Source: Heterostelium album PN500 (lineage: Eukaryota; Evosea; Eumycetozoa; Acytosteliales; Acytosteliaceae). From it: a stretch of 64,000 bases of DNA. The translations under genes were made by a program, and so were the position numbers. The notes beneath the pieces were generated by a model. That model was not told where the DNA came from, did no database searches, and was given only the letters and a program-made list of their open reading frames with translations. Numbering within the stretch: position 1 is the first letter of the stretch; each line of letters starts with the position of its first letter. Location: assembly GCF_000004825.1 (NCBI RefSeq), contig NW_008805064.1, positions 868,001 to 932,000 of the forward strand, read 5' to 3'. Shown here piece after piece: positions 15,323 through 52,263 of this stretch.

Positions 15323-17125
15323 TTATTCGTCTGAATCTTCTGAATCTTCTGAATCATCATCATAATTATTATGTTCATTATCATCATTATCATCATTATC
15401 ATCATTATCATCATTATCTTTATCTTTATCGTTTAATATTAATTGATTTAGTATATCAAAATGAATGATTCCACCTTCTAATCCACCATCTGCAATCATC
15501 AGATAATGATTGGTTGTGTTGTCAAGTTTTCTAATATAAAAAAGTTGACTATCCAATTTTGGAAAGAATACATAAAGTGTTTCGATAGTTGATGGCAATG
15601 TTTGTAGTGGATTGTTGACAAGGAATCGATGAATGACTCTTAAAGTTGTAAGTGTAGATGGAAGTACATAATCAGCTAGAGTCTGATCATAGTTTGATAA
15701 ATCAATGTCGGTCACTGATTCCGGTATGGAATGAGGAAGAAGAGGTAATGTATATTCCTGACTGAGCACCAGTGTTTTCACTGTTTTTGGAATCAAACCA
15801 ACAGGGATTTCATGATTGTAAACTTCGCCGAGATTCAGCTCTTCCAAGCCTTCAGGAAACACTCCCGCTACCAAAGGATGATTATAAACCCCCAATGAAA
15901 GATTCTTAACTTTCGATGGTAGTTGACCAACTGAGAGAGGTTGAACAGAGTTGATTTGACTACAGATATCGAGGTTCTCTATCGTACAGGAGCTAGGAAT
16001 GATTCTTGGATCGAGTGTGTTTAAACATTCACCTAGATCCAGATCTTCATAGTTGGAATCTGCTGCCGGTGTTGGAATGACATCTGGTAGCAGTGTAAAT
16101 GGATCAGCAGAGTCGAATGCCTCAAGATAGATGGTAACGAGTGTCTTTGGAAGATCATCTGGTTTCAGAGTGTATCCCGATGGCCTTAGGTAAAGTAAGA
16201 GTTCTTTGAGATTCGGTAGCGATTTCAATTGTTGAATATTACTAAACGATGCGTTAGTGATACCGGAGAGCGCTTCAATACTGGTGGGGAGTGCCGGTAG
16301 GTTGAGTTCATAGGGAAGGTTGAATTTAAGTCTTTCCAATTGTTTTGGAATTACAGCGGCCGAGAGAATATGTGAATAGCTTCCAAGCTGTAGTTCTTTT
16401 AGAGAAGCAGGAAGAGTACCAACTTCAAATGGTAGATTATATCCTCCAAAAGAAACGTACTCCAATGAATCCGGTAGCCAACCTTTCTCCAAATGCTTTC
16501 TGAACGTGAAAAACCCAAGATTTTTGATATTCGCTGGTATACAACCAACGGCCAAATTATTATCGAAATAAATTTCATATTTAACAACATTGGAATCGAC
16601 CACTTTGTCATAAACAGCTAGCATCGTTTCCACATCACAGTCAGAATAAAATAAAATTTTTGAAACAACTGGATCAATTTTTAGTTGCTTTATATCATTT
16701 TGTTCTGAAAATAATAATAAAATTAAGAATAGAAATGTATTTTGATTAGAATTGAATAGATAGATAATGTTAAAACATTATAAAATTGATATTGATATAT
16801 ACATACTATGGTTAAATGTAAATTCATCAATGCTTGAGTAAACACTAGTTCCAATACATAATACACAATCATCGAGATTCTTTAGAACTGTCTCGTATTG
16901 CTTCCTATAGGAATGGAGATGAAAATCTGCAATTTCATCCAACTGTCGCGATGTGCTATAGAACTCTTCACTGTCCAACGTAAGATATTTATCACGATCT
17001 TCGAACCATCTTTTACAAGTTAAACTGAAACATAATCTATCTATCGCATTTGGTATCAATTCAACTATCTTATTTAATAAAAGATGTGATAAATTTACAA
17101 ATATATGATTATTATTATTATTCAT
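15323..17125 (-). CDS. F-box and FNIP-repeat protein (566 aa)
   Basis: Two exons, 16807-17125 and 15323-16704; the intron keeps frame (GTATGT...TTTCAG). The N-terminus holds an F-box (NLSHLLLNKIVELIP... LTCKRWFEDR), expected to bind Skp1 in an SCF ubiquitin ligase. From residue about 150 come at least ten FNIP-type leucine-rich repeats (pattern IPxxhxxLxLxxYNxxhxxGxLPxSh), for example LPASLKELQLGSYSH and IPKTVKTLVLS. These make a solenoid for substrate binding. The C-terminus is a run of Asp, Asn, Glu and Ser. FNIP repeats are an amoeba and giant-virus speciality and are very numerous in dictyostelids. The substrate is unknown. Confidence 0.88.
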
Positions 17126-33501: not shown

Positions 33502-36500
33502 TTAATTATTAAATTTCCGCAATTTATAACCAATTTCCCTTGCCCTATATCCCAATTTCTTTTTATACAATAAGACGAGAGCTACTGCAATTGCTACTCC
33601 ACCAACAACAGAGAAAACAACGATCAACGGAATCTTGTATTTCTTTTCTGAATCGCCACATTCATCGGATTCAACAAGAAGTGATCCAAAGTTTGGATCG
33701 ATAATCGCATTGTCTGTGAATTGTTGAATTGAAATTGCTGTGAGAACATTCAATTTCGTTGGATATGTTTGGTTGATAAGTTTGGAAGATGGATCATCGG
33801 AATCCAACAATGAAACTTGACTGTGTGTGACTTTACCATCGACAATCATTCTGTCTGAATAATAACTCTCGAGAATCGATCCACCAATATGAATTTCCAT
33901 TGTTCGAAGTGAATCTTTATCGTTGACTTGATTGTTGATTGTTGTTTCTTGACAATCGCCGAGTTGACTATTATCACCTTGTGAAAGGAATAACAATTGA
34001 AGATAGTTTGTTAATTCTTCAAATTTCCAATCCAAAATTTGAACTTTATATTTGACAGAGTTGGCTGGAATTGAAAAGATATCACCTGCAAAGTTGTATG
34101 TGCTTTCATTGAGATAAACTGTTGTATTAACAATGATCTTTCCAATTTTATCGATGGTTGATTGGTATGAAATAAAGTTTCGTGATTGATCTGATTCCAA
34201 GATGGACCATTCCAAGTTCTTGAAAAGATAACTCTTTTTAATATTTCCAATCGAATCCAATTCTCTAACTTCTGTTATATTTACTTTGAATTCAACTTTA
34301 TCATTGGTGACCAATGTTACATCGGTTGAATTATCATTTAGAATTGGTGGTTCCGACACTCCTGATATTTTGTTTGAACATGTAAATCCAAAGTAATCTT
34401 TGAAACAATCGCATTTACCAGTGGTTGGATTGCATTGACCATTCTCACCACATGATGTTGGACATTGATTTACTTGTTTATAAATGAATTTATCTCCAGA
34501 TGTTGAAAGATGAGCGACATTTACTTGAACTGAAAGTGTTGAATTGCTTGATCCAACATTTGATTCAAACCAACAAGTTAATCTTGTTGGACTGATTACT
34601 TTTGGATTTGTACAATTCTTTTCACCAATCAATACGATTAGAGCGTTATCTGCAAAGTTATTTCCATCGATTGTAACGGTATCTGCTTTCTTGAAAATGG
34701 TTGAAGTAACACTATCAATGATTGGTCCTTGATATGAAAAGAGTGTTGAGCTTGATTTGTCCAAGAAATTGAATTGAGCAGATACTTGTCCTGATCCTGG
34801 TGGTGCTTTGCATGAAATTGTGTAAGGACTATAACTAACACCATCCCATTTCAAATCAGTGCATTGAACACCTCCAATCGAAACTGTGAGCACTGGTTGT
34901 TCATCGAATGAAATTGGTGAAAGATAATATCCTTGGAAGTTTATTATTCCACCTGCGACTAATGGTGATGATACATTCATAACAACTGGTGGAATTGGAA
35001 TTTGAAAAACCTGTGAATCTAGACCATATGAATTCATAGTAATCGGTCCACTTCTGCTATCTAATGGTAAATTAAGTTGGACACTGGTATCTGTATAACT
35101 GGAAATGTCAAGCATTGAAGAATCAATAACTTTGGACAATCCATGTATTTTTGGTCGTACAATACCAAAATACTTTCCGTTGAGTGTCATTGATACTGTT
35201 GGTGGTTCAGCTGCAATAACACTGTATTGTGAGTTTTTAATAGATGGTGGTGTTCCTGAATAGTTGTAACCTCCAGAAAGTATACCAGATGCGGTTGTTG
35301 ATAAAACTTCCAAAGTTGCTGGTCCATAAAACTGAGTCGCAATAAATGTAATGTATGATGGTCCAGTTCCTCCACCAATGATATTTATTAACTGTCCGTT
35401 AAACTTTAAAGCTGCTGAAATATTATTTAAATTGTATCCATACAAAGAAACTACATTATTTGGTATCATATACTTTGGTGAATATGATGTTATTACAGGT
35501 GCTAAAAATAAATTATAAAAATATTTTAGGATGAGAATATTTTAGTTTGTTTTAGAATAATTTATAATTACCCCAAGTTATATTTTCAGAATATAAAGTA
35601 AAACCTTGAGAAGAAATTAAAGAAAATAATCCATTTGAATCATAATCTGGGAATAAAAATGAACATGATGTATCTGAGCAAACCAAATTATTTGGTGAAA
35701 CTTGCTTACTACCCATTATTATTTTCAAACTATTTTTGTATGGTGCAATATCTGGTGAACTCATTACAACAGTAATATTGTTTTGAACAAAAGTTGGATT
35801 TTCAATTCCTAAAAAAAAAAATTTCTAATTAGTTTAATTATTTTAATTTAAATAATATTTCTTATAATTACTTTTAATAGAAACACCCATATATCCATCT
35901 TGATCGGCTCTTCTGAATTTATATTGAATATTGTTGGAAAGTTTGTATATTAATGGTGGAACTACAAAAGAAATTTGAGAATCACTCAAATTTGTGACAT
36001 TGGTACAAGTAACATTGTCATTGGGGTTGAAATTGTATATGAGTATAACAGTAAATGGATCTTGAACAGTTGAGAAAAATTGACCATTGGCAAGAACTAC
36101 TCCACCTTCTGTCGAAACCGGTGTAGAAGAAGAGAGGATAAAAGCTGGTGATCCCCAAACAAAGAAATCGGATGCATCAGGTCCAATGATAACTGAAAAA
36201 TTATAAATACCATAGGGTACATTATTAAAAGAGTAAGTTATCTGGTTGGGCGTCATTGTTAGAACTTGACCATCTGGCAATCCATTGATCATTATTGAAC
36301 CTCCAGACAAACTAGCTCCATGGATATACAATATATTTGAAACGTAGCTAACAGAATCGATGGTTGGAACCAATTTGTACTGGTAGGTGGAGGTGATATT
36401 AAACGAAGACATTGAAATCAAATTGATGGTAATTAGTTTGGTGAGTGGAGCGTTTTGAACTGTGAGCATACCGGTCTGTGCAGCATAGGAAAATTGCAAC

Positions 36501-44550: not shown

Positions 44551-46236
44551 ATGGAATATACATTATTTTTAAAGATTTTTAATAATCAGGTTCTAAGATA
44601 TAATATATTTAATAAGGTTTCAGAGATTCATTTAGCACTTGGTTTAAAGACATGTGAGTGGATTCGTTTGGCAAATAATCCGCAGTTATTAATTAAATAC
44701 AATTATGTGGATTGCGTTAAAGAGTACTTTGTTAAATATCTTACACCTAATTGTAGTTCTCATATCACTCGACTGATAGGATTCTCTATTTCAATATCGA
44801 TTGAATGGGGTCGTTTCAAAGTACTAGAGATGTTTGTAAAGGATCTTCGGCTGAAACTATCGAATTACATTCGACACTCATTGATGTTTTATAGAGCCGC
44901 CTACAGTAGAAAGCTAGAGAATTTGGTGGCGCTCGAAAGATTTCTCATTGAACATGATGATATCGATAATATAACACCAAAGATCTATGTAGAGGGTTTA
45001 GAGGTGGCCGCAGATCGTGGTACTCTGGACATGGTCGTTTGGCTTTCAAATAAGGTCGGTGTTATCAGTCCCGATGAGATGACTGTTTCGCCTATCGAGC
45101 TTGCAGCAAAGAATGGTAATCTCTCGATGTTGCAATGGTTGATTGTAAACCGACCTAAAGACAGTTATCATCAGGTTGTTCACCTAGCTCTGGAGAATGG
45201 TCATGTAAAGCTGCTCGATTGGCTTGTAGAGAATGAACATATCGATCCTACCAACATTACAGTGAATATTGATATCTTAGCAGATAGTGGATTTCTGAAT
45301 TCAATCATCTGGGCACACAAGAAACATTGTAGGATAACATGTACTCACAATGCAATGAACTTATCGGCGTCACATGGTTACCTACACATTATCAAATGGC
45401 TCGATCAACATCGTACAGAAGGTTGTAATCAATTTGCTATGAACATTGCTGCTGAGAATGGCCACTTTGATGTTTTCAAATGGTTCCACGAGAATAGAAC
45501 TGAAGGATGTACAAATAAAGCAATGGACTTTGTTAGAGCGAATGTTCCAAAGATCTCCATTGAGAAATACAATGAAATGGTTGTTTGGATGCATAGAAAT
45601 AGAAGTGAAGGTTGTACAACTAGAGCTCTAGACAATGCCTCTTGTTTCTCATTGGAGCTGGTAAAGTTTCTTTATTACAATCGAACCGAAGGATATTCAA
45701 AGAATGCATTTTACAACGCTGCTCTCAATGGACGTTTGGATATATTTAAATTTCTAGAGGAGAATAGAACAGAAGATATTCCAACCAATGTTATTATAGC
45801 GGATGTCTGTAGAGCATCGGTGAATAACGATTGTTTGGATATGATAAAGTACCTAAATGACCAATATCCAGAGGAATCTTCTTGGAGTACTGCTATTGAT
45901 ACTGCTGCCTCCAATGGAAATTTGGCAATAGTGAAATACCTCTGTGAGAATAGATCGGATCGATGTAGTGAAATCGCGCTAATTGGTGCAATCAAGAAGA
46001 GGAGACCAGATATTATCGAATATTTACTAAGTAATAAATTGGTTATATGGACAAGTAAATCTATACTTGAAGCAGTTGGACAATTTTATTATTCATTAGC
46101 AGATCATCTTTTGCAACAATATCCAGAACCATTTGAAATTAACAAAGCAATGAATTTGGCAGAGGAGATCTATGAATTTTCAATCGATAATATTAGAAAT
46201 TATTTTAAACAAAGAAATTTATTAAATATAAATTAA
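44551..46236 (+). CDS. ankyrin-like repeat protein with NRTEG loops (561 aa)
   Basis: Single exon with the family start MEYTLFLKIFNNQVLRYNIF. The N-terminal 140 residues are a conserved head (SEIHLALGLKTCEWIRLANN, LIKYNYVDCVKEYF) also seen in the protein at 52.3-54.0 kb. About twelve ankyrin-like repeats follow, with loops HRTEGC, NRTEGC, NRSEGC, NRTEGY, NRTEDI and NRSDRC at 30-35-residue spacing, each after a (I/V)(F/V)K(W/F)(L/F)HEN helix. No other domain or membrane helix. Presumably a protein-binding scaffold. It bounds the left side of the small-membrane-protein array. Confidence 0.87.
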   Translation: MEYTLFLKIFNNQVLRYNIFNKVSEIHLALGLKTCEWIRLANNPQLLIKYNYVDCVKEYFVKYLTPNCSSHITRLIGFSISISIEWGRFKVLEMFVKDLRLKLSNYIRHSLMFYRAAYSRKLENLVALERFLIEHDDIDNITPKIYVEGLEVAADRGTLDMVVWLSNKVGVISPDEMTVSPIELAAKNGNLSMLQWLIVNRPKDSYHQVVHLALENGHVKLLDWLVENEHIDPTNITVNIDILADSGFLNSIIWAHKKHCRITCTHNAMNLSASHGYLHIIKWLDQHRTEGCNQFAMNIAAENGHFDVFKWFHENRTEGCTNKAMDFVRANVPKISIEKYNEMVVWMHRNRSEGCTTRALDNASCFSLELVKFLYYNRTEGYSKNAFYNAALNGRLDIFKFLEENRTEDIPTNVIIADVCRASVNNDCLDMIKYLNDQYPEESSWSTAIDTAASNGNLAIVKYLCENRSDRCSEIALIGAIKKRRPDIIEYLLSNKLVIWTSKSILEAVGQFYYSLADHLLQQYPEPFEINKAMNLAEEIYEFSIDNIRNYFKQRNLLNIN

Positions 46237-46289
46237 TTAGATGTCAAATAAATTTGATTTCCATATTTTTTTCATATTAAAAATTTAAA

Positions 46290-46330
46290 GTAACATATCA
46301 TCGAACTGGCTCACTTATCTCTAGATATTA
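46290..46330. repeat. stray array-derived segment
   Basis: AACATATCATCGAACTGGCT at about 46292 recurs with small changes at 49220-49245, inside the array (AACATACCATCGAACTGCCT). It suggests another eroded unit, or 3' flank, at the left end. Confidence 0.5.
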
Positions 46331-46409
46331 TTTTATCTACAAATTTCGATTATTTTCTAATATTCTTTTAAAAAGCATTAAAGGTAAAGTACACATTTTA
46401 TTTTATTAG

Positions 46410-46660
46410 CCTGATAGTTTATGTTGTTGATTTTGTTGGAGGTGAATATGTTGTTGATCGTCTAAGCGATTGTACTTCTGATTGATAATGAAGAAACCTT
46501 TTCGAGTCTCGACTGTGTTTGTGATGATTGTTGTTATATTGCTGAGTAGTCTCCTATGAATTGTGTGAGGTAATAGAGTTTTCCTTTTGGAATAGGTATG
46601 ATATAATATAAATATATTGCACTTTAACAATATCTCTAAAGTGTATTCTGCAATAAGATA
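46410..46660 (-). other. unit A 3' segment, possible last exon or UTR
   Basis: Follows an acceptor-like TATTGCAG near 46650. The stretch coding PIPKGKLYYL in one frame is conserved at DNA level in units B and D, and all three copies stop in that frame at nearly the same place. Another frame is open to 46406 in unit A only. Coding status is undecided. Confidence 0.35.
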
Positions 46661-46944
46661 CCGGGTCTATCATGATTTTTTTCATAAATGTTATTCTTTA
46701 TGATGAAAATTAATTAGTAAGTGTCAAATCTCCCTCTCTATATCTCAATCTCTTATTCAAAAGTATTGTGGTTATAACTTACAGGTCCAGAACTACATTT
46801 TAATAAACATTTCTGAGCATGCGTGATCCAAGATCTGTTTCTTACTGCTTACAGTTGCCTGATAACTAATTGGTGATAAATCAGTACCTGTTAGTAGGAT
46901 ATTGAATAGTAGAAACGCTCTATACACCAAATAATACATACACA

Positions 46945-47352
46945 TCAATTAAATATCAGCATTGTGGATAATATTGGTAAACTTATAAACAACCAAGTAT
47001 GGCTTTTCTTCCTTTCTGTACCATTAACTTCATTTCTACCACTAAATTCTGATGCACGTTGAATACTATATATAAAGAGTACAAAAATACATATAAAACT
47101 ATTTTTCGACACGGTAATAGTCAACGAACTACATTCCCTTCTCATTTTAAAATAAGTTCGAATATCATGATCTCTCTGATCATGAATATCCTCTGGTTGG
47201 GGAAATACTTCACAAGAAGTAGTTACATTCAAAATATTTATAACAGCAGAAGCTGTAGATTCACATTCGGTCTCTTTTACGTAAGTAAATAGACAAAGGC
47301 TAATTAAAAATAGATATGTTGCATAAAATGCAATACTCCTAAATTTATACAT
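46945..47352 (-). CDS. array unit A: small multi-pass membrane protein (about 135 aa or more)
   Basis: Starts at the ATG at 47352 (MYKFRSIAFYATYLF). Helix 1 is a signal anchor (ATYLFLISLCLFTYV). A short outer loop has the family Cys pattern TEC, TSCEVF and RREC. Helix 2 is NSFICIFVLFIYSI, then NEVNGTERKK, then helix 3 (WLFISLPILSTMLI). It aligns along its length with unit D. After 46945 a frame one base away continues with LVYRAFLLFNILLTGTDLSP, a stretch shared with units B, D and the remnant E. The true C-terminus is therefore unclear: frameshift or unseen intron. A GTAAGT donor near 46780 and TATTGCAG acceptor near 46650 suggest a further 3' exon. No known family recognised. Confidence 0.5.
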   Translation of the reverse strand: MYKFRSIAFYATYLFLISLCLFTYVKETECESTASAVINILNVTTSCEVFPQPEDIHDQRDHDIRTYFKMRRECSSLTITVSKNSFICIFVLFIYSIQRASEFSGRNEVNGTERKKSHTWLFISLPILSTMLIFN

Positions 47353-47541
47353 ATTTGTTCGAAATTAACTCTTTATAGTTATTGATACTCTTTTTTTTTT
47401 TGGGTATGATAAGTTGTTTTGTGGTCTATTGTATTGTTGTGATTAGTTGATTTGTTATTATTATTATTAATTGTATGGTGATAGTAAAATTTTGATTTTG
47501 ATTTAAAAATTTTGAAAGCCTGGGTGCTCACTTTTTTTTTC
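47350..47541. repeat. upstream duplicate, unit A copy
   Basis: 5' flank of unit A, nearly identical to 50866-51041 with small length changes in T runs. It holds the shared element at 47421-47439. Confidence 0.85.
47421..47439 (-). promoter_or_regulatory. shared upstream element, unit A
   Basis: Coding-strand CAACAATACAATAGACCAC, about 70 bp before the ATG. Matching elements stand before units B (48624-48642), C (49613-49634) and D (50922-50940). Confidence 0.5.
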
Positions 47542-47699
47542 GACAAAGACAACACAAAGAATCAATTGTCAAATGCATTAAACCTGGAAGAACAAACAAC
47601 CAATAGAAAACAAAGTTGAATATATAACAAATTCTTATTATTTATTAAAGTCGTTTTAGACATTAAAAGTGGTGTATTTACAAATTTTTATTTTGTTTA

Positions 47700-48579
47700 T
47701 TTTTAATGTGGTCGTTTCATTTGTTGTTGTTGTTGGAGATGAATATGTTGTTGATAAACGATTGTACTTCTGGTTCTGTAGAAGAAACCGTTTCGAGTCT
47801 TTACTGTGTTTGTGATGATTGTGGGTGGCGAAATATTATGATTGTTGTCAAATTACCGAGTAGTTTCCTCGAGGTAATAGAGATTTCCTTTTGGAATAGG
47901 TATGATATAATATAAATATGTTGCTCTTGTTCAGAAAGATGAACTTTCGTTCTATTTCAGATGGTCAATTGAGAGATGCACTACTGAAAGAACTACATTA
48001 TAACTTCTTTGAATAGATATTTTTGTACAGCTTATAGTTGCAACTATCATCTAATTGGTGATAAATCATTACCTGTTAGTAAGATATTGGATAATACAAA
48101 CGCACTATACACCAATTTAATACATACACATATTGTAGAGATATCAGCAATATGGAATTCAATATTAAATTAACCATATTTTTCAAGGCCGTATCGATTA
48201 TCGTTCCATGTACATCTTAAAAGAAGTTAGTGCATCTTGCACTATTTGAAAATGAATATCCTCTGGTTGAGGAAATGCTTTATATGATGTAGTTACATCC
48301 AAATTATTACGAAAAACCGTAAATCCCTGGTCGGATATCAAAAAACAAGGTCGATTTTCTTTAAAAAAAAGTAATATTTTAAGTTCTACCTAAATAATGA
48401 ACCATCGACCTTTATATTTGTTTGTTTCGATAGAATCACCCATTGATATACTTGATATTTCAAAAAGTGAAAGCTGAAGTGACATTACTCTGTATGATAT
48501 TAGGCTTTTAAATAAAGTTGACAAATTCAATGCAAAGAATCAATATCATATGTATTGACTCCTAAGTAAATTTAGACAT
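47700..48579 (-). pseudogene. array unit B: degenerate copy of the small membrane protein gene
   Basis: Its ATG (48579) gives MSKFT, as in unit D, then a stop. Further on the homologous text returns out of frame: NNLDVTTSYKAFPQPEDIHF (near 48230-48290) and TICVCIKLVYSAFVLSNILL followed by TGNDLSPIR (near 48060-48150). About 250 bp of unrelated-looking sequence separates the start from the conserved part. The 3' segment (PIPKGNLYYLEETT, then stop) is at 47860-47930. Clearly not translatable as one protein. It is still useful, as it preserves the C-terminal helix in one continuous frame. Confidence 0.65.
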
Positions 48580-48623
48580 AATTGTTTTCCTTTTTTTTAT
48601 TTTTGGATATGATCTGCTGTTTT

Positions 48624-48642
48624 GTGATCTATTGTATTGTTG
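48624..48642 (-). promoter_or_regulatory. shared upstream element, unit B
   Basis: CAACAATACAATAGATCAC on the coding strand, about 45 bp before the ATG of the degenerate copy. Confidence 0.45.
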
Positions 48643-49249
48643 TGATTATTATTATTATCTTTGTTGTAATTATAGTAGTCGACTAAATTTGTGTTGTTGA
48701 ACAAAGTGTCAGTCTTGTAAAAAAAAACGTTACCTCCCTTGAAATAACTAAAAAAGATGAAAGTAAAGTTTAAAATGATCATCTTTTTTATTTTTTACTT
48801 TAATATCATAACATATTTTTATGGTCTATTTTTTGTCTGTTTTTAAATTTTTGGTTGTTGACATGTTTTTGATTAATTCTAGATGGGATATAATAGTTTT
48901 TTGGATAACGTATAACTGTGTTGGTTGCTCTTGTTCAGGTCAAAGATGAGCTTTCTCTCTATTTTCAGATAGTCAATTGAGAGAGTAGTGCATCTATTTT
49001 AAGGAGTGCATCTCTGATTCATTTTCTTTTTATCTATGATAACAATTAATTAGTAATTGTCAAATCTCTCTCTCTTATTCAAAAGTATTGTTGTTATAAC
49101 TTACTTACATGAATAGAACTACATTATAATAAACTTCTCTGAACATGCTTGATTCATGATCTGTTTCTAATTTGTTGCTATAACTATCATACATTCCTCC
49201 AAACTATCAATATGACAACCGCAACATACCATCGAACTGCCTCACTTGT

Positions 49250-49567
49250 CTAGTTATAATATCTCCAAATGTCTGATAATATAGTTTGAGTTATATATGC
49301 GACAATAGAAAATAAAGTAATATTTTTAATTGCTGTGCTAGGCATCGTATTACACTTTATGAACATATCATGAGAATGAGTTATATTAAGTATTCTTTGT
49401 CTATACATTTTTAGATCCTCTTGACTAGAAAATGCATCACATGATGTAATTTCTGTCAATTCATTAGCAATATCAGGAAACATAGAATGGCATTCTATCA
49501 TTTCTGAGACAACATAAATACAATAACAAACTACCATTGTTGTTGCTATATAAACAAATTTAGACAT
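49250..49567 (-). CDS. array unit C: divergent small membrane protein (105 aa)
   Basis: I start at the second Met (MSKFVYIATTMVVCYCIYVV), matching the MSKFTNIATT start of unit D; a Lys-rich leader of six codons is open upstream. A signal-anchor helix is followed by the Cys pattern IECHS, TSCDAFSSQED and IKCNTM, as in units A and D. A second helix (ITLFSIVAYITQTIL) ends near the stop. It is shorter than A and D and lacks the NEVNGTERKK link and third helix, so it is either a diverged member or a truncated one. Confidence 0.5.
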   Translation of the reverse strand: MSKFVYIATTMVVCYCIYVVSEMIECHSMFPDIANELTEITSCDAFSSQEDLKMYRQRILNITHSHDMFIKCNTMPSTAIKNITLFSIVAYITQTILSDIWRYYN

Positions 49568-49612
49568 ATTTTTTTTTTTTTTCAAATAGCTTAATATTCT
49601 TTTTTGTTGTAT

Positions 49613-49634
49613 GATGTAATCTACTGTATTGTTG
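49613..49634 (-). promoter_or_regulatory. shared upstream element, unit C
   Basis: CAACAATACAGTAGATTACA on the coding strand, about 50 bp before the ATG. It is one of the few conserved blocks in the otherwise diverged unit C flank. Confidence 0.45.
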
Positions 49635-50446
49635 AATTTTTGTGTAATGTTAGGTGACTTTATTATCTCTATTTAATTAAAAAATTTTAGAAAAAAAATA
49701 ATATCAGTTTTAAAAAAAATTGGTTATTAATGATCAAAGACCATCGCTTTTTTTTCTGCGAGAAACTGTAAAAACAAGATCGAACTTTTTGCTAAAAATA
49801 TTTTGACAAAAAAAAATTTGTTTATTCGTTTGGACCTTCGGAAAACTAACAAACTCTATCTATTAACAATCCTAAGTAAATGTTGATAGTGTCTAGCTAG
49901 AAGACCAAACAACAATAGAAAATAAAGTTGAAAAAAATAAACAAATTTCAAAATAACAACTTTAGTTTACACTTTTTATTTTTTAAGGTGATCGTTTGTG
50001 TTGTTTGTTGATGTATCCACTGTATTTGTGACGATTGTGGCGGTGAAATTTTATGTTTGTTGTTATATTATTGAGTAGTCTCCGAGGAGTTGATGAGGTA
50101 ATAGAGTTTTCCTTTTGGAATAGGATAAATATGTTGCACTTCAACTTAAACTCTAAAGAGTATTCTGCAATAAGATACCGGGTCTATCATGATTTTTTTC
50201 ATCAATGTTCTTGTTATCTATGATTAAATTAATTAGTAAATGTCAAATCTCCTCTATATCTCAATCTCTCTATTCAAAGTATTGTGGTTATAACTTACAG
50301 ATTTAGAACTATATTAGAATAAACTTCACTGAGCATACATACAACATGCGTGATTCAAGATCTGTTTCTTATTGCTTATAGTTGCCTGTTATATAATTGG
50401 TGATAAATCAGTACCTGTTAGTAAGATATTGAATAGTACAAACGCT

Positions 50447-50866
50447 CTATACACCAATATAAAATACATACAAATTATTAGCTAACATTGTGGATACTAA
50501 TGCTAAATTTATAAACATACTAAGATACCTTTTCTTCCTTTCTGTACCATTAACTTCATTTCTATTTCTATCACATTGAATTATAACGAATACAAAGACA
50601 CATATAAAACTATTTTCCAACGCTTTGCTAGTCAACGATCTACATTTTAAGACCATTTTTATAGCAGTATAACTATCATTCAAAACCTGAAAATAAATAC
50701 TAGTTGGACTAAGAAATACTTCACAAGATCTAGCTTCTTCCAAATTATTTTTAAAAACAGTAGCTGTAGAACCACATTCGGTATCTTTTACGTAAGAAAA
50801 TAAACAATAGCTAAATATAAATAGAAGAAGTGCCAATGTTGTTGCTATATTCGTAAATTTAGACAT
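50447..50866 (-). CDS. array unit D: small multi-pass membrane protein (139 aa)
   Basis: Cleanest copy. MSKFTNIATTLALLLFIFSY forms helix 1. The outer loop is YVKDTECGSTATVF, RSCEVF and LKCRSL: three conserved Cys and NDS/NGT sequons. Helix 2 is NSFICVFVFVIIQC. NEVNGTERKK is identical to unit A; helix 3 is MFINLALVSTMLANNLYVFYI. Immediately downstream, one base out of frame, lies LVYRAFVLFNILLTGTDLSP, as in A, B and E. A donor-like GTAAGTTATAACC near 50298 and acceptor TATTGCAG near 50166 match those of unit A. Its upstream 175 bp is nearly identical to that of unit A. Function unknown. Confidence 0.55.
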   Translation of the reverse strand: MSKFTNIATTLALLLFIFSYCLFSYVKDTECGSTATVFKNNLEEARSCEVFLSPTSIYFQVLNDSYTAIKMVLKCRSLTSKALENSFICVFVFVIIQCDRNRNEVNGTERKKRYLSMFINLALVSTMLANNLYVFYIGV

Positions 50867-51041
50867 ATTTGTTCGAAATTAACTCTTTAAAGTTATTGAT
50901 ATTCTTTTTTGGGTATGATTTGTGATCTATTGTATTGTTGTTATTAGTTGATTTGTTATTATTATTATTAATTGTATGGTGATAGTAAAATTTTGATTTT
51001 GATTTAAAAATTTTGAAAGCCTGGGTGCTCACTTTTTTTTT
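50866..51041. repeat. upstream duplicate, unit D copy
   Basis: 5' flank of unit D, from TATTTGTTCGAAATTAACTC to AAAGCCTGGGTGCTCACTTT, nearly identical to 47350-47541. Only about 17 bp separate it from the stop codon of the next NRTEG gene, so the promoter of unit D must be very compact or overlap that gene's 3' end. Confidence 0.85.
50922..50940 (-). promoter_or_regulatory. shared upstream element, unit D
   Basis: CAACAATACAATAGATCAC on the coding strand, about 55 bp before the ATG. Confidence 0.5.
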
Positions 51042-51057
51042 GGGTGGTAACATTTTT

Positions 51058-52263
51058 TTAAATATTGATATTATAATCTTTGAGAAATGCGTATATAATT
51101 GGTATGTTACTTTGTTTTGCTAAATTAACTAGCTTGTCGTGATCCAATATGCTTGATTTCATTAACCAATCAACTATTTCAATGATAAATAGAGATTGAT
51201 TTTTTAATTGAGAAATAATTGATGATTCCAAATCATTTGAATAAAGCTTGCTATCAATGAGATATTGAATCATTTCAAAGTCTTTTCTTGATAAAGCATT
51301 ATCAAATACATTTATGGTAGTGCTGACATGAGTTGTATTTTGGTTAATCCACTTTACTAAATCGAGGTTCGATGATTTGATTGCTAAATCCATTAGATTG
51401 AAAGACCAATTATATTCATTTGGCTTTCCAGTTTCATAAAGATATTGAATCATCTCTAATTGACCATAATAACATAGACTTCCAATGAGATCGGAGGAAA
51501 CTCCTTCTGTTCTATTTTCTTTGAGGAATTTAAAGATTTCCAGTTGACCAGCCAATCCAGCATTAAACATTGCCAAGTTTGTACAACCTTCAGAGCGATT
51601 CTGATGAAGGAATTTAACAATATCAAGTGAGAAAGAAGCAACAAAATCCATGAAACCATGACTAAATCCTTCTGTTCTATTTTGATGATACCATTTTACC
51701 ATTTCAAATGTTTGACTCTTCTCTGATTCTTTAGTTAATGATTTTTGGCTAAAGAGGCATATGGTATGTGTTCCTTCTGTTCTATTCTCATGTAACCATC
51801 TAACAGTTTCGAATTTACATCTGGTGAACGCATTATACATTGCACTCTTTGAACATCCTTGATTATTATGATCATTGATCCATTTTACAACATCGAGTGA
51901 TGATTTTCTTGCTGCTTCATCGAAATCATTTGATGTAAAGTTGATTCTTATTTTGGTTGTACTCAACCATTGATATAAATCGTTCAGAGAGAATTTGAAA
52001 CCAAGTTCGGATGCTTCATACTCTCTATCTTCTATATAACCATTGGAAAGTAACCAATCAGGAATATGCTTTTGAAATTTGTTTAATGCAATACCAATCA
52101 TTCCATTTCTAAGTTGCAAATCATCTCTATCGGTTCTGTTGTTGATTAACCAATCTATAATCTGTACATGACCACCATAAACCTCTTTATTTTGAAATTT
52201 ATTAAATATATTTGATCTAATAACTAAATTATTAAATTCTAATTTGAATAATTCTGATTTCAT
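51058..52263 (-). CDS. ankyrin-like repeat protein with NRTEG loops (401 aa)
   Basis: Single exon, start MKSELFKLEFNNLVIRSNIF. It lacks the roughly 140-residue head of its relatives: NIFNKFQNKEVYGGHVQIID runs straight from the start motif into repeats, as if an internal deletion had joined them. Loops are NRTDRD, NRTEGT, NRTEGF, NRSEGC and NRTEGV, spaced 31-40 residues, with helices such as LEIFKFLKEN and LDIVKFLHQN. It is the middle one of three NRTEG genes that frame or abut the membrane-protein array. The neighbour at 52344 lies head to tail with it, suggesting tandem duplication. Confidence 0.85.
   Translation of the reverse strand: MKSELFKLEFNNLVIRSNIFNKFQNKEVYGGHVQIIDWLINNRTDRDDLQLRNGMIGIALNKFQKHIPDWLLSNGYIEDREYEASELGFKFSLNDLYQWLSTTKIRINFTSNDFDEAARKSSLDVVKWINDHNNQGCSKSAMYNAFTRCKFETVRWLHENRTEGTHTICLFSQKSLTKESEKSQTFEMVKWYHQNRTEGFSHGFMDFVASFSLDIVKFLHQNRSEGCTNLAMFNAGLAGQLEIFKFLKENRTEGVSSDLIGSLCYYGQLEMIQYLYETGKPNEYNWSFNLMDLAIKSSNLDLVKWINQNTTHVSTTINVFDNALSRKDFEMIQYLIDSKLYSNDLESSIISQLKNQSLFIIEIVDWLMKSSILDHDKLVNLAKQSNIPIIYAFLKDYNINI

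Follow-up and report, generated by a model that had tools for sequence, protein, structure and literature searches.

Two inverted arrays of a small predicted membrane-protein family in Heterostelium album, with fast coding change in the A/D-type copies

We analyzed a stretch of 64,000 nucleotides from Heterostelium album PN500 (contig NW_008805064.1, positions 868,001 to 932,000; in the following called the window), in which a minus-strand array of four head-to-tail units, A to D, is found between two ankyrin-repeat genes (Table 1). Units A, C and D contain open reading frames, and B is a relic with stops. An original prediction, made from the DNA letters, had already described four such units at roughly these places, with C diverged and B dead, and our analysis agrees with it. 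In tblastn searches, A matched D with an E value of about 6e-33 and C matched D with values of 8e-10 to 2e-9; the relic B starts with an ATG at about 48579. A and D also share their 5' leader outside the coding part, with 98% identity over 126 bp. A stray segment that had been noted at 46.29 kb aligns to the stretch past the C stop codon with a score of 44, compared with 34 for the best of 300 shuffles.

The original prediction missed, however, an inverted second array, the shared leader, the 3' modules of the units, a retroelement fragment and a dead locus on another contig. A genome search located the second array at about C3:964538-969068, ~45 kb from the first. It holds the open frames D' (128 aa), C' (107 aa) and A' (133 aa) together with a dead copy, B'. 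Within this array, a B segment corresponding to window 48164-48574 (97% identity) has been flipped. On its 5' side lies an ankyrin-repeat gene, at its other end a truncated ankyrin tail. There are thus six open frames, i.e., predicted genes, in two arrays. The dead locus is a lone C-like relic on contig C30, with a 32% match to C over 100 columns and two in-frame stops. Beyond the arrays and this relic, queries with D, A' and C gave no match in the genome below E 0.1, genome match counts being lower bounds. Contig C9 has a weak match (E 1.69), and another on contig C27 (E 0.151) was rejected as a family member because it runs antisense to another frame. Searches covered the organism's own genome as well as viral and bacterial or archaeal contigs; scans of the viral and the bacterial or archaeal contigs gave 11 and 23 pattern matches, respectively, none of which was confirmed as a relative.

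From the hydropathy profiles, three hydrophobic regions are apparent in each of A, D, A' and D', and the proteins of 105-139 aa may all be integral membrane proteins. The predicted topology begins with an N-terminal signal-anchor helix, followed by an outer loop of ~55 residues with three cysteines, a second helix and a short basic cytosolic loop, after which the A/D type would add a third helix. Because the basic loop is placed inside, the three-Cys loop is assumed to face outward. In an alignment of all six members, Cys 21, 31, 48 and 75 (D numbering) are invariant, with the latter three located in the loop. The alignment also bears out the motifs MxKFxxIA, TEC, SCEVF, CxSLT, NSFIC and NEVNGTERKK that had been read as common to A and D. 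Searches of Pfam, NCBIfam and PDB gave scattered weak matches and none that passed the cut-off or E 0.001, the best being DUF805 in one of the six members (E 0.0078). The view that no named family shows this pattern hence holds within these libraries. Likewise, the array family was not found when the literature, which is not searchable by sequence, was searched by topic. We conclude that the family is real and unnamed, with six open copies.

The inverted duplication provides a built-in control, in which each frame is compared with the rest of the same duplicated block. For A-A', these surroundings are the spacer with the B remnant, the leader, the 3' region and the tail of the ankyrin gene. 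Here the frame differs at 37 of 402 sites (9.2%) and the rest of the block at 40 of 1823 (2.2%, p=8e-10). Frames also outran their flanks in A-D' (47/384 versus 11/498, p=1.9e-9) and A'-D' (38/384 versus 8/494, p=4.5e-8). The excess lies in replacement changes, with rates relative to the flanks of 3.4 [1.9-6.5] for A-A', 7.6 [4.2-16.7] for A-D' and 8.2 [4.1-22.6] for A'-D'. The corresponding silent rates were 1.6, 1.3 and 1.8, and all intervals include 1. In the older D-A' pair, replacement changes are densest in the loop (0.83 per codon). For the A/D type, the evidence of diversifying selection is good; for C, there is none.

Such a comparison could mislead if gene conversion or constraint had kept the flanks alike, so that the coding part merely looks fast. 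Conversion is indeed real in this family. D' is a hybrid that is A-type across the gene and the near 3' region and D-type in the far 3' tail, which indicates gene conversion, and the site patterns among the A, A', D' and D frames conflict, with three nearly equal splits (6, 5 and 5). Silent sites in the older D pairs, at about twice the flank rate, would also be in line with homogenized flanks. Still, we regard this explanation as rather unlikely. In recent pairs the in-frame silent sites change as little as the flanks, whereas replacement sites do not, and the spacer, the B remnant and the ankyrin tail, quite unlike in kind, all stand at 1-3%. Moreover, the majority of recent changes occur only in A (14) or only in D' (17); although conversion occurs, none of the known copies was their donor.

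Codon-based methods lend modest support to selection. With NG86, omega was 1.9 for A-A', 5.3 for A-D' and 4.2 for A'-D'. Codon maximum likelihood (ML) gave omega values of 3.6-4.3 for A-D' (p 0.029 and 0.014) and 3.3-3.8 for A'-D' (p 0.052 and 0.031). YN00, which returned values for 4 of 15 pairs, yielded 3.62 for A-D', 2.80 for D'-A' and 0.67 for C-C', the last inflated by a 3' indel. This indel near the 3' end also inflates the C-C' counts in NG86, the simulation and codon ML, and these counts were dropped in favor of the flank comparison. In neutral simulations with the flank spectrum, the result was significant for A-D' (p=0.002) and A'-D' (p=0.006).

A number of observations weigh against selection on these proteins, or against its reading as recognition. 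Codon ML for A-A' was non-significant (omega 1.2-1.5, p 0.75 and 0.47), and in the joint test of A, A' and D' its p values were 0.09 and 0.04, depending on the frequency model. The fourth YN00 value, for D-A, was 0.53 and thus below 1. In the neutral simulation, neither A-A' (0.13) nor any of the D pairs (0.14, 0.14 and 0.08; flank spectrum) reached significance. Tested pairs overlap, and the p values are uncorrected for multiple testing. To this come the raised silent rate of the D pairs and the C-C' pair, which has no excess at all (13/318 versus 38/1035, p=0.74) and in which a 10-base indel shifts the frame near the end. Recent replacement changes are spread over the first helix, the loop and the second and third helix and are not concentrated in the loop. 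In the hydropathy profiles, C has only a single hydrophobic region and C' has two, and AlphaFold2 models of three window proteins were unusable (mean pLDDT 48.7, pTM 0.30).

Several of these findings, namely the low omega values for A-A' and D-A and the C-C' differences that are no greater than those of their flanks, would also be expected if the frames were decaying leftovers under relaxed constraint, drifting freely, with the apparent excess due to noise or counting bias; some copies, namely B, B' and the C30 relic, have died in any case. Drift, however, cannot account for a frame that changes at about four times the rate of the duplicated block around it, as seen for A-A'. In addition, the A/D-type frames remain open: all four indels inferred among A, A', D and D' are multiples of three, compared with flank gaps of many lengths, and the neutral chance of an unbroken frame is 0.05-0.10 per recent A-type pair and 0.003 for D-A'. 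We hence consider relaxed constraint improbable as an account of the A/D type.

Repeats in and around the units raise the question of whether the units belong to a transposable element, with the frame as a transposon gene. Unit ends carry old retroelement remnants (window 46420-46534, 47721-47848 and 50013-50066), ~78% identical to a 1107-codon frame that holds a reverse transcriptase. Two noncoding modules in the 3' parts, E1 and E2, recur in the genome, E1 at at least 17 places, five of them in the arrays, and E2 at at least 14, three of them in the arrays. Nevertheless, a transposon origin of the frames seems highly improbable. Protein matches are confined to the two arrays and the C30 relic, with those on C27 and C9 being weak, and near-full-length matches to the leader occur at four units only. 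Dispersed whole copies, as expected of a transposable-element gene, were not found in the genome searches, and the retroelement fragment, in place of a transposon-internal match to the frames, occurs only at the far 3' ends of the units. The longest frame open up to E1 has 42 codons elsewhere, compared with 128-135 in the four intact A/D-type units. A role of E1 as a general 3' UTR (untranslated region) module was rejected as well, since a long frame reaches it only in these units. RNA structure in E1 was unsupported (9 pairs, -0.78 kcal/mol); in Rfam searches only two tRNAs in the window reached gathering scores, and three matches in the array (E 0.008-2.9) fell far under them. Contigs C35 and C5 hold many of the E1 and E2 places, which lie next to unrelated genes or within gene-poor repeats.

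The element bearing the reverse transcriptase is itself ~4.5 kb long (loci L039-L043 and L013), and its copies in the compared loci are ~99% identical. Four of the five longer loci (L040-L043 but not L039) have, ~45-63 bp beyond the 5' end of the element, a tRNA gene that points towards it. This placement resembles that of tRNA-targeting dictyostelid elements (PMC5006619).

Open and dead copies side by side, the inverted second array with its flipped segment and the hybrid D' all speak for a birth-and-death mode of evolution, as the original prediction had proposed. We would thus picture a young family of small integral membrane proteins that, within the genomes searched, is seen in its own genome only. 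New copies would come from tandem duplication and from an inverted duplication that takes in the whole array; some would die, as B, B' and the C30 relic did, and sequence would be exchanged by gene conversion, as in D'. Positive selection would drive change among the proteins of the A/D type. The role in recognition or defence that was put forward along with birth and death is, in turn, still conjecture. Positive selection on the A/D type fits a recognition role, but the changes in the helices and the missing signal in C leave the role a matter of inference. Probably, the proteins act in recognition or genetic conflict, with a part at the membrane or cell surface in which novelty is rewarded. 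Self/non-self or pathogen recognition would come first here, and poison-antidote drive would be less likely. For the reading as a whole, a lineage-specific membrane family with its A/D type under diversifying selection in recognition or conflict, we see about an even chance.

Social amoebae are known to have gene families that change fast and are unstable, with products that are often exposed proteins (PMC12324515, PMC8535579, PMC6526906, PMC4931340, PMC5006619 and PMC6369745). Genes whose proteins outpace the surrounding DNA mark an organism's conflict with self, kin or parasites, which in social amoebae is well studied for Tgr. Like the array family, tgrB1/tgrC1 and the tgr family of Dictyostelium combine transmembrane proteins, a locus that duplicates, inverts and recombines, and fast protein change (PMC12324515). 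Tgr proteins, however, have immunoglobulin-like TIG/IPT domains and a role in allorecognition (same source), whereas the array proteins are only 105-139 aa long, contain no Pfam domain passing the cut-off and have a role that is conjectural; up to an E value of 1, none of the six members gave a TIG match. Being compact, unrelated to Tgr and equipped with its own control, two arrays from one duplication, the array family would offer a second and simple locus for testing what drives such change. The array family also resembles the lineage-specific expansion families of dictyostelids, 79 of which are counted in P. pallidum in a table of PMC8535579. Such families have at least five paralogues in one species, a number reached by the six open frames if the predictions hold, and twice as many as in other species; signs of positive selection are common in them although not required. 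These signs we see for the A/D type only, strong against the flanks and modest by codon model, which differs from the branch-site test of PMC8535579.

By description, the arrays also recall the wtf genes of Schizosaccharomyces pombe, for which PMC6526906 gives predicted transmembrane proteins without clear relatives elsewhere, gene conversion between copies, fast change and dead copies. Small, predicted multi-helix proteins, duplication, dead copies, conversion and fast, helix-wide change are all found in the array family. Its live copies might accordingly be selfish, comprising membrane poisons and matching antidotes that aid their own transmission. Yet wtf drivers use alternate transcripts to produce their poison and antidote (PMC6526906), and the array members are genes of a single frame that show no hint of paired transcripts and are present in only two arrays, so that we give a wtf-like family only a small chance. 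Little probability also goes to a related proposal, a new social-amoeba conflict system unrelated to Tgr, in which small three-pass membrane proteins would be under diversifying selection over their whole length, including the helices, because live copies would have to match or counter each other within the membrane, resembling poison-antidote or kin-killing systems.

Table 1. Features of the array and its neighborhood. Positions refer to the window unless a locus (L) or contig (C) handle is given.
Feature	Position	Strand	Remarks
Flanking ankyrin-repeat gene	44551..46236	+	561 aa
Block repeated inverted	45801..51041		C3:964368-969557 (L052 3368-8557); takes in ankyrin-gene tail
Stray copy of stretch just past C stop codon	46290..46330	-	
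Unit A 3' noncoding part	46420..46944	-	E1 46848-46951, E2 46753-46839, retroelement remnant 46420-46534
Unit A open frame	46945..47352	-	135 aa, three hydrophobic segments; segment outrunning its surroundings
Unit A 5' leader	47353..47540	-	near-full-length matches at four units only
Unit B 3' end	47721..47848	-	~78% match to reverse-transcriptase-bearing frame of dispersed retroelement
Unit B dead copy	48164..48579	-	stop at codon 6, coding patch 48204-48311
Unit C diverged open frame	49250..49567	-	105 aa, same three loop cysteines, without third helix
Unit D 3' noncoding part	50013..50470	-	modules E1 and E2, short retroelement remnant
Unit D open frame	50447..50866	-	139 aa, three hydrophobic segments
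Unit D 5' leader	50867..51041	-	near-full-length matches at four units only, genome-wide
Putative overlapping upstream frame in leader	50859-51053; L052 3499-3711 and 6792-6989		
Flanking ankyrin-repeat gene	51058..52263	-	401 aa
E1 and E2 loci	46848-46951, 46753-46839; L053, L021, L022, L026, L030, L044-L048, L054, L055		

The leader, conserved in D, D' and A', contains a putative upstream frame of 64-70 codons that overlaps the main frame. Among the neighbors, the ankyrin-type gene at 51058-52263 has a sub-cut-off Pfam match to the viral multigene family 530 protein family (E 0.00063), which probably arises through shared repeats. Farther away in the window, a 655-aa frame on the minus strand (33502-35469) contains a ComC supersandwich domain (E 1.4e-12) with weak EGF-like matches; exposed proteins of this type are common among social amoebae. 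A 433-aa FNIP-repeat gene on the same strand (15323-16624, E 3.8e-45) represents another repeat-protein family near the ankyrin genes.

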